Positions 14,643 to 19,582 of a DNA stretch of 64,000 nucleotides are shown piece after piece. Position 1 is the first letter of the stretch. The number at the start of each line of letters is the position of its first letter. The position numbers were made by a program, and so were the translations under genes. The notes under the pieces were generated by a model. The model saw nothing but the letters and a program-made list of their open reading frames with translations, searched no databases and was not told the origin of the DNA. Source of the DNA: Sulfuricella sp. (GTDB lineage Bacteria > Pseudomonadota > Gammaproteobacteria > Burkholderiales > Sulfuricellaceae); assembly GCA_023266195.1 (NCBI GenBank), contig JAHFRP010000001.1, positions 248,001 to 312,000 of the forward strand. The letters are read 5' to 3'.

Positions 14643-17237
14643 ATGCCTTCGCCGCGAAGCTTTTCATCGGCAACTCCGATGACAGCTGTTCCGCCCGATA
14701 AAAGCGGTCTGATCTGGTCAACCGGCTTGCTCCTGGCCGCCGCCTACGTGGTCAGCGGGAAGCTGAGCCTGCTGCTGGCGCTCCCGCCGGGCTACGCGTC
14801 CGCCATCTTTCCCCCGGCCGGAATCGCGGTCGCGGCCGCACTGATCGGCGGCGGGCGCACCTTGCCCTGGATCTTTCTCGGTTCCCTATCGCTCAACGCG
14901 TGGGTCGGCTATTCGGCGAGCGGACAGGTCGGCCCGACCGGGCTGGTCGTGGCGTCGGTCATCGCGATGGCCTCCATGCTGCAGGCCGCTGCTGGCGGAT
15001 GGTGGCTGCGCCGCATGGTCGGCTATCCGGTACCGCTCGACGATAGCCGCGACATATTGCGCTTCCTGCTGTCCGCTCCGCTCATTTGCCTGGTCAGCGC
15101 GAGCCTTTCCGTGAGCGGCCTCTTTGCTTTCGGAATGGTCGGCAGCGCGGGCTTCGCGGTGAGCTGGGCCACCTGGTGGGTCGGCGACACGCTCGGCGTC
15201 GTGGTGATGCTGCCGCTGGTCATGGTCGTCGCCGGCGAGCCGCGCGCCTTGTGGCGCGGCCGTTTGCGCACGGTCGCCCTGCCGATGGTGCTGGTGTTCG
15301 CGTTCATCGTCGTGATTTTCTTCAGGGTTAACCAGTGGGAGCGCGATGAAATGCAGCTCGTTTCCCATGCCCGGTCGCAATCGTCCGCCGAACCGGCCGA
15401 CGGCGGCCAATACCGGAGCTGGCAGAGCTGGAGCGTGCTTTCCGCCGGCATCCTCGGCACCGGGCTGCTCGGCGCGCTGCTTCTCCTGGGCACCGGCCAT
15501 GCCGCCCGCGTCGAGGCGGAAGTGAAAGCGCGCACCCGCGAGCTGAAAGAAAACCAGGACCAGCTGCATGAAATCACCGCCAACCTGGGAGAGGGCGTGT
15601 ATGTCATGAACGCCGAGGGTCGAATCACCTTCACCAATCCCGAGGCTCAACGTCTGCTGGGCTGGACCGAAGACGAACTGATCGGCCAGGACGCCCACCG
15701 GCTGTTTCATTACCTAAGGGCGGATCATGCACCCCATCCGGTCGAGGAATGCCGCATCGTCGGGGTGATGCGCTCGGGCGAAACGTACCGTTCGGACGCC
15801 GAGCTGTTCTGGCGCAAGGACGGGACGCCGCTGCCGGTGGAGGTGTGTTCTTCCCCGATCGGGCGGGACGGCGGGCTCGCCGGTTCGGTTACGGTTTTCC
15901 GGGACATTACCGAGCGCAAGCGGGCGGACGAGGCCTTGCGCGAACAGAAGGAATTCCTGAACACCATTCTGGAGAGCGAGCCCGAGTGCGTCAAAGTCGT
16001 CGCGGTCGGCGGCCGGCTGCTGCAGATGAACCGCGCCGGCCTGGCGATGCTTGAGGTCGATACGCTGGAAGAAGCGCAGCAGCTGGGGTTGAGCGCCTTC
16101 ATTCTTCCCGGATACCGCGATGCCTTTTTGGGGTTGATCCAGCGCGTCTTCAAAGGCGAAACTGGCGTGCTGGAGTTTCCCATCCAGGGAAAGCGCGGCA
16201 CGCCGCGCTGGCTGGAAACGCATGCCACGCCCCTGCGCGACGCGTACGGCAGGATCGTCGCCCTGGTCGGCGTGACGCGCGACATCACCGAGCACAAGCG
16301 GGCCGCAGAGGCGCTGCGCGAAAGCGAGGCGCGTTTTCGCGACACCCTGGAATACGCCCCGATCGGCATGGCCATCGTGTCGCTGGACGGGCGCTTCCTG
16401 CAGGTCAACCGCGCGCTGTGCAACATTGTCGGGTATGAAAAAACCGAGCTGGAACAGCTGACCGCCGAGGACATCACCTATCCCGAAGATATGAAGGCTT
16501 CCCTCGCCAACATGCGGTGCGTGGAGGACGGCGAGGCTAAATCCTTCAAGCTGGAAGAACGTTATTTCCACAAGGACGGCCGGATCGTGTGGATTCAGCT
16601 TTCCTCTTCCCTGCTGCGGGACGCGGCCGGTGCGCCCTTGTATTTCATCGCCCAGATCGAGGACATCAGCGAGCGCAAGTCCAGCCACGAGCGGATTCAT
16701 CACCTTGCCTACTACGACATTCTCACCGACCTGCCCAACCGCCGCCTGCTGATGGACCGGCTCAACCAGGCCATCGCCCAGGCGCAACGCTACAAAAGAT
16801 CCCTCGCGGTGATGTTTCTCGACCTGGACCATTTCAAGGAAATCAACGATCGGCTGGGCCACGACGTCGGCGACGAGCTCCTCAAGGTGGTCGCCGCCCG
16901 GCTAAGCGCCTGCGTGCGCAGCGCGGACACCCTTTCCCGGCAGGGAGGCGACGAGTTCGTCATCGTCCTGGCGGAAATGACGCAGCCAAAAGATGCCGAA
17001 CTGGTGGCGGATAAAATCCTGAAAACCCTGGCTGACCCGATTGCCGTCAGGGATCATCAGCTGCGCGTCACCACCAGCATCGGCATCGCCGTTTACTCCG
17101 CGGATCGTCCGGAAGATGCGCAAGAGCTGATGAAAAAGGCGGATATGGCGATGTACGCGGCGAAAGAGGCGGGAAGAAACCAATATCGGTTTTGCCGTTG
17201 CCCCAACGGATACTCGGGCACGAGATGTCGCGTGTAG
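14643..17237 (+). CDS. MASE1-PAS-GGDEF diguanylate cyclase
   Basis: An 864-residue inner-membrane signalling protein. The N-terminal 290 residues hold about eight hydrophobic segments with the MASE1-like stretch SAIFPPAGIAVAAALIGG. Three PAS domains follow (about 300-420, 425-550 and 555-680; the first contains YVMNAEGRITFTNPEAQRLL). A GGDEF domain (about 690-850) carries the intact active-site motif RQGGDEFVIVL and the metal-binding segment FLDLDHFKEIND. It should synthesise c-di-GMP in response to an unknown cue. No EAL domain follows. An alternative start is ATG 14679. The stop codon TAG (17235-17237) lies inside a family B repeat, so the last residues (CRCPNGYSGTRCRV) look like a non-native tail. 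Confidence 0.92.
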   Translation: MPSPRSFSSATPMTAVPPDKSGLIWSTGLLLAAAYVVSGKLSLLLALPPGYASAIFPPAGIAVAAALIGGGRTLPWIFLGSLSLNAWVGYSASGQVGPTGLVVASVIAMASMLQAAAGGWWLRRMVGYPVPLDDSRDILRFLLSAPLICLVSASLSVSGLFAFGMVGSAGFAVSWATWWVGDTLGVVVMLPLVMVVAGEPRALWRGRLRTVALPMVLVFAFIVVIFFRVNQWERDEMQLVSHARSQSSAEPADGGQYRSWQSWSVLSAGILGTGLLGALLLLGTGHAARVEAEVKARTRELKENQDQLHEITANLGEGVYVMNAEGRITFTNPEAQRLLGWTEDELIGQDAHRLFHYLRADHAPHPVEECRIVGVMRSGETYRSDAELFWRKDGTPLPVEVCSSPIGRDGGLAGSVTVFRDITERKRADEALREQKEFLNTILESEPECVKVVAVGGRLLQMNRAGLAMLEVDTLEEAQQLGLSAFILPGYRDAFLGLIQRVFKGETGVLEFPIQGKRGTPRWLETHATPLRDAYGRIVALVGVTRDITEHKRAAEALRESEARFRDTLEYAPIGMAIVSLDGRFLQVNRALCNIVGYEKTELEQLTAEDITYPEDMKASLANMRCVEDGEAKSFKLEERYFHKDGRIVWIQLSSSLLRDAAGAPLYFIAQIEDISERKSSHERIHHLAYYDILTDLPNRRLLMDRLNQAIAQAQRYKRSLAVMFLDLDHFKEINDRLGHDVGDELLKVVAARLSACVRSADTLSRQGGDEFVIVLAEMTQPKDAELVADKILKTLADPIAVRDHQLRVTTSIGIAVYSADRPEDAQELMKKADMAMYAAKEAGRNQYRFCRCPNGYSGTRCRV

Positions 17238-17325
17238 GTCGGGCACCCCGTGCCCGACAAATCTACCCCCCCCCAATCGACTTTCAAATCAACCCAAACC
17301 GTCGGGCACGGGGTGCCCGACCTAC
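17234..17325. repeat. REP pair, family B (copy at 3' side of RAYT)
   Basis: Arms GTAGGTCGGGCACCCCGTG and CACGGGGTGCCCGACCTAC, about 50 bp apart. It holds the stop codon of the GGDEF gene in its left arm and the stop codon of the RAYT gene in its right arm. Confidence 0.9.
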
Positions 17326-17789
17326 GCGTTGGCCGGACCGCACCAATCGGGCGGGTACACGCCGCGCGCGACGAAACGCTGAAAGGTCGAATGCGGCCAT
17401 GCGGCCGGGGTGTCGGCATAACCGTGCTTGACCGGGTTCCAATGAATGTAATCGCAATGTTGCTGAAAATCCGCTTCGTCGCGAATGCAATGCTCCCAGA
17501 AACGGTGTTGCCACACCGCCTGCTCGCGCTTGGCGCGGCGTGCGTCGGAAATGATGGCCTTGTGTTCGGGTGCGCAATGGCGGGTGAATTCGCGCTTAAT
17601 GGACATCCAGCGGGTGGAAAAATCGTCGTCGCCCTCGGGCAGCGTCCAAAGGCAATGCAGATGATCGGGCAATAACACCAGGGCATCGAGCGCGAAACGG
17701 CGCCGCGTCTTGATTTCGCGTAATATCCCGCCCAGCAGTGCCACATTGGCGTCGTGGGCGAACAAAGGCCGCCGCTCGAATGTGACCAC
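17322..17789 (-). CDS. REP-associated tyrosine transposase (RAYT), N-terminus frameshifted
   Basis: A Y1/HUH transposase of the TnpA-REP type, 155 residues if the GTG at 17789 is used. The HUH motif is DHLHCLW (His43, His45), and the C-terminal block DYIHWNPVKHGY carries the likely catalytic Tyr114. RAYTs nick and move REP palindromes, and this gene is framed by two family B REP pairs. Upstream of the GTG the same frame still encodes RAYT-like ARRGATYFFTVVT, but without a start codon. The natural start MEYRR (ATG at 17838) is one base out of frame. One extra base near 17825 would explain this, so the gene is either recently inactivated or started unusually. Confidence 0.85.
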   Translation of the reverse strand: MVTFERRPLFAHDANVALLGGILREIKTRRRFALDALVLLPDHLHCLWTLPEGDDDFSTRWMSIKREFTRHCAPEHKAIISDARRAKREQAVWQHRFWEHCIRDEADFQQHCDYIHWNPVKHGYADTPAAWPHSTFQRFVARGVYPPDWCGPANA

Positions 17790-17847
17790 GGTGAAAAAAT
17801 AAGTCGCCCCCCTTCGGGCGAAGCCGCCGATATTCCATTCGGCTATT

Positions 17848-17936
17848 GTAGGTCGGGCACTCCGTGCCCGACAAATTTAAATCCTCAGCCGGTTCCAAAC
17901 CAACCAGAACCGTCGGGCACGGGGTGCCCGACCTAC
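17848..17936. repeat. REP pair, family B (copy at 5' side of RAYT)
   Basis: Arms GTAGGTCGGGCACTCCGTG and CACGGGGTGCCCGACCTAC. The right arm contains the stop codon of spoVR (CTA at 17933-17935 on the + strand). Together with 17234-17325 it brackets the transposase. Confidence 0.9.
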
Positions 17937-19450
17937 CTGGACAGCTTTCTTTTTTCTATCGGCGTTTCGTGGGTCAGTTCGACCTTGCCGTCCTCGGATA
18001 CCGTTTCCATCCGCACCGTGAAGCCCCACAGGCGGCCGAGGTGCTTCATCACTTCGTCCATCGATTCGCCGAGCGGACGCCGCTGGTATTGCGTGTGGCG
18101 CAGGGTCAGGGAGCGGTCGCCGCCGCGGTCGACGTGGTAGACCTGGATGTTCGGCTCGCGGCTGCCCAGGTTGTACTGGTCGGCCAGGGCCTGGCGGATG
18201 TAGCGGTAGCCTTTTTCCTCGTGGATGGCGGTGATCTCCATCTTGTCCCTGGTGTCGTCGTCGAGCACGGCGAATAGTTTCAGGTCGCGGATCACCTTGG
18301 GCGACAGGTATTGCGAGATGAAGCTCTCGTCCTTGAAATTGCGCATGGCGAAGTCGAGCGAGGAGACCCAGTCGGTATCCGCCAGTTGCGGGAACCAGTA
18401 GCGGTCTTCCTCGGTCGGGTTTTCGCACATGCGGCGGATGTCGCTGTAGACGGCGAAGCCCAGCGTGTAGGGGTTGATGCCCGAATAGTATTTGCTGAAA
18501 TAGGGCGGCTGCGCCAGCACGTTGCTGTGCGACTGGAGAAACTCGATCATGAAGCCGTCCGACAGCTTGCCTTCGTCGTACAGGGTGTTGAGGATGGTGT
18601 AATGCCAGAACGATGCCCAGCCTTCGTTCATCACCTGGGTCTGGCGCTGCGGGTAGAAGTACTGGCCGATTTTCCGCACGATGCGCACGATTTCGCGCTG
18701 CCACGGCTCCAGCAGCGGCGAATGCTTCTCGATGAAATACAGCAGGTTTTCCTGCGGCTCGGCGGGGAAGCGGCCGTTGGCGGCGCTGTCCGTTGCCCGG
18801 TTGGAGGCGGGCAGGGTGCGCCACAGATCGTTGATCTGCGACTGGCGGTAGTCTTCGCGCTCTTTCTGGCGCTGCTGTTCCTGGCGCAGGGACAGGCGCG
18901 ACGGGCGCTTGTAGCGGTCCACGCCCTGGTTCATCAGCGCATGGCACGAATCCAGGGTCAGCTCGACTTCCTCGTGGCCGTAGCGGCGCTCGCAGTCCTC
19001 GATGAAATTGCGGGCGAACACCAGGTAGTCGATGATCGAGTCGGCATTGGTCCAGGTCTGGAACAGGTAGTTGTTCTTGAAAAACGAGTTGTGGCCGTAG
19101 GCGGCGTGGGCGATCACCAGCGCCTGCATCATCATGGTGTTCTCTTCCATCAGATAGGCGATGCAGGGGTTGGAATTGATCACGATTTCATAGGCCAGGC
19201 CCATCTGGCCGCGCCGGTAGCGCTTCTCGGTGTTGAGGAATTCCTTGCCGAACGACCAGTGGTGGTAGCCCACCGGCAGGCCGACCGAGGAATAGGCGTC
19301 CATCATCTGCTCCGACGAGATCACCTCGATCTGGTTGGGGTAGGTGGACAGCCGGTACTGCCCGGCCACGCGCGCGATTTCGGTGTGGTAGCGTTCGATC
19401 AGGTCGAAGGTCCACTCCGAGCTGGTGGAGATTACTTTGCGTTTTTTCAT
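17933..19450 (-). CDS. SpoVR family protein (YcgB-like)
   Basis: A 505-residue cytoplasmic protein, the usual SpoVR/YcgB length, starting MKKRKVISTSSEWTFDLIER at ATG 19450. An upstream in-frame extension only translates a 7-bp tandem repeat. Family-typical stretches include HHWSFGKEFLNTE, VINSNPCIAYLMEEN and NEGWASFWHYTILNTLYD. It is the third gene of the prkA-yeaH-spoVR operon, known from E. coli (yeaG-yeaH-ycgB) as a stationary-phase/nitrogen-starvation module; the biochemical function is unsettled. The stop codon is donated by a REP repeat, so the C-terminus may have been altered. Confidence 0.93.
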   Translation of the reverse strand: MKKRKVISTSSEWTFDLIERYHTEIARVAGQYRLSTYPNQIEVISSEQMMDAYSSVGLPVGYHHWSFGKEFLNTEKRYRRGQMGLAYEIVINSNPCIAYLMEENTMMMQALVIAHAAYGHNSFFKNNYLFQTWTNADSIIDYLVFARNFIEDCERRYGHEEVELTLDSCHALMNQGVDRYKRPSRLSLRQEQQRQKEREDYRQSQINDLWRTLPASNRATDSAANGRFPAEPQENLLYFIEKHSPLLEPWQREIVRIVRKIGQYFYPQRQTQVMNEGWASFWHYTILNTLYDEGKLSDGFMIEFLQSHSNVLAQPPYFSKYYSGINPYTLGFAVYSDIRRMCENPTEEDRYWFPQLADTDWVSSLDFAMRNFKDESFISQYLSPKVIRDLKLFAVLDDDTRDKMEITAIHEEKGYRYIRQALADQYNLGSREPNIQVYHVDRGGDRSLTLRHTQYQRRPLGESMDEVMKHLGRLWGFTVRMETVSEDGKVELTHETPIEKRKLSR

Positions 19451-19466
19451 CCTCAATACCTTGTTG

Positions 19467-19539
19467 AGCTTGTAGCTTGTAGCTTGTAGCTTGTAGCTTG
19501 TAGCTTGTAGCTTGTAGCTTGTAGCTTGTAGCTTGTAGC
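19467..19539. repeat. 7-bp tandem array (AGCTTGT) n about 10 upstream of spoVR
   Basis: About ten perfect head-to-tail copies of AGCTTGT end 17 bp before the spoVR start codon, between yeaH and spoVR. The array is followed by inverted GTAGC/GCTAC units (19541-19592). Because it is long, perfect and in a leader, its copy number is likely to vary between cells or strains and could tune spoVR translation. Confidence 0.9.
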
Positions 19540-19582
19540 GCGTAGCTGGTAGCAAAAACGGCTACAAGCTACCAGCTACCGG

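Follow-up and report, generated by a model that had tools for sequence, protein, structure and literature searches.

IS200/IS605 elements such as IS608 use a tyrosine transposase related to the REP-associated tyrosine transposases (RAYTs), carry hairpin ends and choose their cleavage site under the guidance of a tetranucleotide. RAYTs themselves are described as always flanked by two inverted REPs, and in many cases the flanking REP directly follows the stop codon of the RAYT or lies a very short way from it (Nunvar et al, 2010; PMC2817692). RAYTs are reported to cleave at CT or CA close to the REP, and GTAG acts as the guide (PMC8266576). GTAG termini of REPs often provide the TAG stop of flanking ORFs (Di Nocera et al, 2013; PMC3733652), REPs that lie no more than 15 nt from stop codons in E. 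coli are reported as possible regulators of translation (PMC12306157), and the diversity of REPs has been described (PMC3686654). The parts of PMC12306157 and PMC3686654 that we drew on contain no orthologue test of REP-supplied stops, and we recognised no published one in the material covered by our literature search.

The window, by which we mean the whole analysed stretch of 64,000 nucleotides of Sulfuricella sp. DNA, contains a RAYT gene framed by two inverted REP pairs. A sequence-only reading had proposed this arrangement and had placed the stop codons of the GGDEF gene, the RAYT and spoVR in the TAG of the repeat ends; direct reading of the two pairs bears out both statements.

17234-17325: inverted REP pair 1 (BIME/REPIN-like), with a GTAG head, two hairpins and a CTAC end, read from the sequence
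17848-17936: inverted REP pair 2, in the same orientation as pair 1, read from the sequence
14727-17237, plus strand: MASE1-PAS-GGDEF gene; start as called by our script, longest ORF from 14643
17235-17237, plus strand: TAG stop of the MASE1-PAS-GGDEF gene, within the left GTAG of pair 1
17322-17789, minus strand: body of the RAYT gene, from the NF047646 match and the reading of its frame
17322-17324, minus strand: TAG stop of the RAYT (CTA), within the right end of pair 1
17933-19489, minus strand: spoVR gene, start uncertain
17933-17935, minus strand: TAG stop of spoVR (CTA), within the right end of pair 2

By direct reading, all four outer ends of the pairs but one are gene stops; the remaining end (17848) lies on the 5' side of the RAYT and supplies none. 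Read inwards, a REP end presents TAG in one of the three frames. The RAYT matches profile NF047646 with 159.2 bits in the window (cut-off 80) and with 188.5 bits as an open frame in the genome, which holds eight RAYT-profile matches, five of them above the cut-off. Like the window copy, the RAYTs of genomes G007 and G004 are flanked by inverted REPs of their own kind. Both are unbroken in a single frame, whereas in the window the N-terminal part, with an ATG near 17838, is out of frame with the body. The break falls at 17795-17838 (minus strand), near a run of six C at 17807-17812, and may be real or an assembly error. The G007 RAYT ends at the same position and likewise stops in its REP; that of G004 has a TGA stop just ahead of the REP. 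Upstream of spoVR (about 19460-19555, minus strand) lie in-frame tandem repeats reading YKLQATS, which the genome has again at C8 and C15. A search of 11 same-genus genomes found no SpoVR, and of 10 other genomes of the family one has it (G014, 84%); several of these genomes are incomplete. From this distribution, the gene may have been acquired or may be frequently lost.

The repeat consists of a GTAG head and a short imperfect palindrome, and its 13-mer GTAGGTCGGGCAC occurs in 131 exact copies in the genome (control reading, 0). We took 64 stretches round repeats of this genome, called genes with our own hexamer script and searched for elements by a 19-base core with up to three mismatches. 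The units form 85 groups, 63 with at least two units and 22 with one (83 groups under looser joining), and the inverted orientation of the pairs is read from their opposed GTAG and CTAC ends. Sixty-one ends face gene starts and 102 face the 3' end of a gene. The TAG of the repeat end is the stop codon in 29 of these 102, while 71 lie past the stop and two are read through out of frame; 60 of the 102 are located at the stop or at most 12 bases past it. The eight upstream positions from -10 to -3 together hold 29 ends, and the exact stop position alone holds 29 (Poisson ~6e-17). In stretches of five related genomes, the repeat end is the stop in 11 of 42 cases (excluding one unit that lay at a contig end). 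The strong enrichment of repeat ends at gene stops, beyond chance, is thereby confirmed, as the earlier reading had expected. No element lies within a gene in the strict count of the 64 stretches, and a looser count finds 10 element-like GTAG ends inside called genes.

TAG belongs to the repeat consensus and the genes were called by our own script, which might suggest coincidence or a gene-calling artefact. The counts in the genome and in its relatives refute this, and repeat-ended genes such as dnaE, rsmI, uup and those for fructose-bisphosphate aldolase and polyphosphate:AMP phosphotransferase have NCBIfam matches that extend to or close to the last positions, so that the probability left to an artefact is negligible.

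We favour an explanation in which the repeats come to lie on stops that were already there, and give it as a whole an even chance. The REP pairs with their GTAG heads, which a RAYT like the window copy presumably uses as substrates, settle outside coding interiors, often just beyond or exactly at the 3' ends of genes. RAYT-driven insertion would land on a pre-existing (Y)GTAG, and this GTAG would fall on the native stop, that is, on the third base of the last codon plus the stop codon. The repeat would then abut or take over the native stop and leave the protein almost unchanged, and copies that alter proteins would be removed by selection.

Protein lengths argue for such a landing site. An element lies at the stop of 33 of 533 genes, and 18 of the 33 could be paired in the stretches taken from the nearest relative, G001; three pairs were dropped since G001 itself has the element at that stop, which leaves 15. 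Eleven of the 15 proteins are as long as in G001 and 14 are within one residue, compared with 120 and 131 of 147 control genes. The exception, RnfE, is by alignment six residues shorter than in G001 and one shorter than in G003 and G008. DnaE is longer by one residue, a gain that counts against the landing site. At the 3' end of dnaE in G001 (L176/L371), half a REP directly follows the native TAA; in the window's genome a full REP pair provides the stop, which falls one codon beyond the position of this TAA. Smaller, earlier comparisons with G001, based on fewer pairs, agreed on protein length and found GTAG less often (2/11 in one of them, after removal of three pairs with the element in G001 too).

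As a rule, the stop that a repeat supplies occupies the native position. On these lengths, the claim that insertion had reshaped the neighbouring proteins mostly does not hold, with the GGDEF protein as a possible exception. The sequence-only reading had named two findings that would speak against it: orthologues without the repeat do mostly end at the same residue (11/15), and the units are nonetheless enriched at gene ends. For the two window proteins whose ends it had suspected of alteration, the outcome is divided. SpoVR, ending in KRKLSR where the 84% relative in G014 ends in KRKLATP, is one residue shorter, and its end is variable anyway among the 95 relatives listed. For the GGDEF protein, a 1:1 orthologue was not found among 31 genomes and homologues were compared instead: the protein is 8 residues shorter than its paralogue in the same genome and 14 shorter than the G012 homologue, and the homologues of G004 and G014 end even earlier than it does. 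Its homologous Cys-rich tail is kept to about two residues before the stop. This short tail, C.CP.GY.G..C, follows the GGDEF domain and is common to the window protein, the paralogue and G012 (L386, L387). Judging from these alignments, only the GGDEF protein, out of GGDEF, RAYT and SpoVR, may be short by more than one residue.

The stop rate was set against two standards, the rate for ordinary GTAG and the outcome of random placement. Within 60 bp of gene ends, family repeat ends are stops in 34 of 81 cases and single-copy ordinary GTAG outside coding interiors in 35 of 62 (p=0.09, family lower), other repeated GTAG heads in 16 of 50 and heptamer arrays in 3 of 20. A first version of the ordinary-GTAG yardstick (37/88 versus 58/150 within 60 bp) was discarded as contaminated by other GTAG-headed repeat families, and the comparison given here was redone with these split off. 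Such families, namely GTAGGTCGGTTCAA, GTAGGATGCGGTGA, GTAGGTGCGAATTC, GTAGGAGCGGCCTC and heptamer arrays of GTAGCTTGTAGC, were seen at non-coding positions, in the window as well as in 75 stretches taken from its genome, and some of them likewise supply gene stops. Random placement was modelled as a GTAG-headed block set in the final one or two codons or up to 60 bp past the gene end. If no more than one residue may be lost, it yields stops in 2.5-5% of placements within 60 bp and 9-16.5% within 15 bp; if a loss of eight residues is tolerated, these values become 18.5% and 47%. The family rate, set beside those of ordinary GTAG and of random placement within 60 bp, argues for the landing site. 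It lies far above the random expectation for 60 bp but does not exceed the rate of ordinary GTAG close to gene ends, and repeat ends thus act as though they lay on pre-existing GTAG.

The same model bears on the mechanism that the sequence-only reading had in mind, in which insertion can take place at any point of the final codons, so that the repeat brings a new stop and reshapes the protein end, with the in-frame cases selected. The observed rate within 15 bp (37/67, looser count) resembles the 47% obtained when eight lost residues are tolerated, and out-of-frame read-through is almost absent (2/102). Further, the GGDEF protein ends 8-14 residues ahead of two homologues, and the glycosyltransferase gene of L141 stops in repeats at differing places in two species. 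However, a loss of eight residues did not occur in the proteins compared with G001, and with a loss of one residue at most, random placement reaches 16.5% over 15 bp and 4.8% over 60 bp. We therefore judge a donated stop of this kind to be improbable.

The corresponding stop codons in G001 speak on both sides of the landing-site explanation. At the 15 sites G001 has TAG seven times and TGA and TAA four times each. This share of TAG exceeds that of all controls (28/147, p=0.02) and is near that of genes with ordinary GTAG stops (12/20, p=0.51), which argues for a landing site. The full GTAG is found at just four of the 15 sites, compared with 10 of 20 ordinary-GTAG controls (p=0.30) and a background of 16 of 147 (p=0.09), and all four of these sites then carry what look like other repeats; together with the four TGA and four TAA, this argues against it. 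A strict native-GTAG target was consequently not accepted as proven from G001. A repeat-free GTAG empty site was seen at none of the 15 G001 sites, and clean two-sided empty sites were found in none of 16 cases, the intergenic DNA being too diverged or repeat-bearing. At the G001 partners of L123, L163, L139 and L125, other-looking repeats follow the GTAG stop at the same stop codons; by sequence, different kinds of repeat seem to occupy one site.

Such stops fit a landing site that drifted later in G001, and they also fit a swap of any stop for TAG. In the latter, whichever stop was native (TGA, TAA or TAG) would give way, in register, to the TAG of the repeat through a postulated exchange step. 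Among the eight G001 sites with TGA or TAA, protein length is unchanged in five, and the aldolase gene provides an example, with GGC TTGA in G001 and GGC GTAG in the window's genome. Leaving out the four repeat-bearing sites reduces TAG to 3/11 and GTAG to 0/11, which slightly raises the standing of the swap and slightly lowers that of the landing site. On the other hand, TAG is over-represented at the G001 sites taken together, and stops drift between these species, ordinary GTAG stops keeping TAG in 12 of 20 cases. No RAYT reaction is known to take bases out of its target, and this counts against a swap, which we hold to be unlikely, if a serious competitor. That insertion itself recognises or exchanges the stop tetranucleotide, turning TGA or TAA into TAG with the protein unaltered, so that the repeat would be homed to stops, appears more doubtful again.

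Features of the ends themselves argue for the landing-site explanation. Of 130 ends, 82% have C or T directly before GTAG, as do 26 of 37 stop ends. The in-frame stops comprise 16 G-ends (the GGTT side of the spacer), 9 A-ends (the AAATC side) and 4 unclassed ends, and nearby non-stop ends comprise 15, 26 and 3, respectively (p=0.04), as if one end of the pair were the landing end. A displaced native stop is likewise missing: in none of the 29 cases, 25 of which have elements of at least two units, does the flank past the element start with one base plus a stop codon. This result, which also speaks for a swap, disfavours simple insertion just before the native stop. Other observations argue against a landing site. 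One target supplies one GTAG, yet in three places (L125, L141 and the window) convergent genes both stop at the ends of one element. Moreover, published RAYT cleavage is at CT or CA rather than GTAG (PMC8266576), and with eight RAYT-profile matches in the genome the partner of this REP is presumed.

The original observation is correct and holds genome-wide, but the kind of effect has already been described. Its use of repeat ends as stops had been called unusual, and is already in print (Di Nocera et al, 2013; PMC3733652). What was a remark in the literature becomes a measured effect, gauged by ordinary GTAG and by random placement: repeat ends that supply a stop do so at the native position and leave protein length nearly constant, and near gene ends repeat ends are no likelier to be stops than ordinary GTAG is. 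This suggests G-TAG stops as natural, harmless landing sites of REPs and bears on how REPs choose their insertion sites. It also carries a warning: where a protein terminates in a REP, the end is in most cases the native one.

In comparison with known systems, the window locus resembles the RAYTs of Nunvar et al (PMC2817692) in lying between inverted REPs with a REP at the RAYT stop; unlike in their description, the stop is within the REP head, the frame is broken and each flank is an inverted pair. With IS200/IS605 elements such as IS608, the system shares a related tyrosine transposase, hairpin ends and, for RAYTs as described, a tetranucleotide guide (PMC8266576). In contrast to IS608, the repeats here carry no gene and their transposition is presumed, and the published role of GTAG is that of a guide, not a target. 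The family also resembles the GTAG-tagged REP families of PMC3733652, which have the GTAG head, palindromes, inverted dimers and a position adjoining gene 3' ends in common with it. Section 15 of that paper gives neither a rate relative to ordinary GTAG nor an orthologue test; both are provided here, for one family and in a genus other than those treated there.
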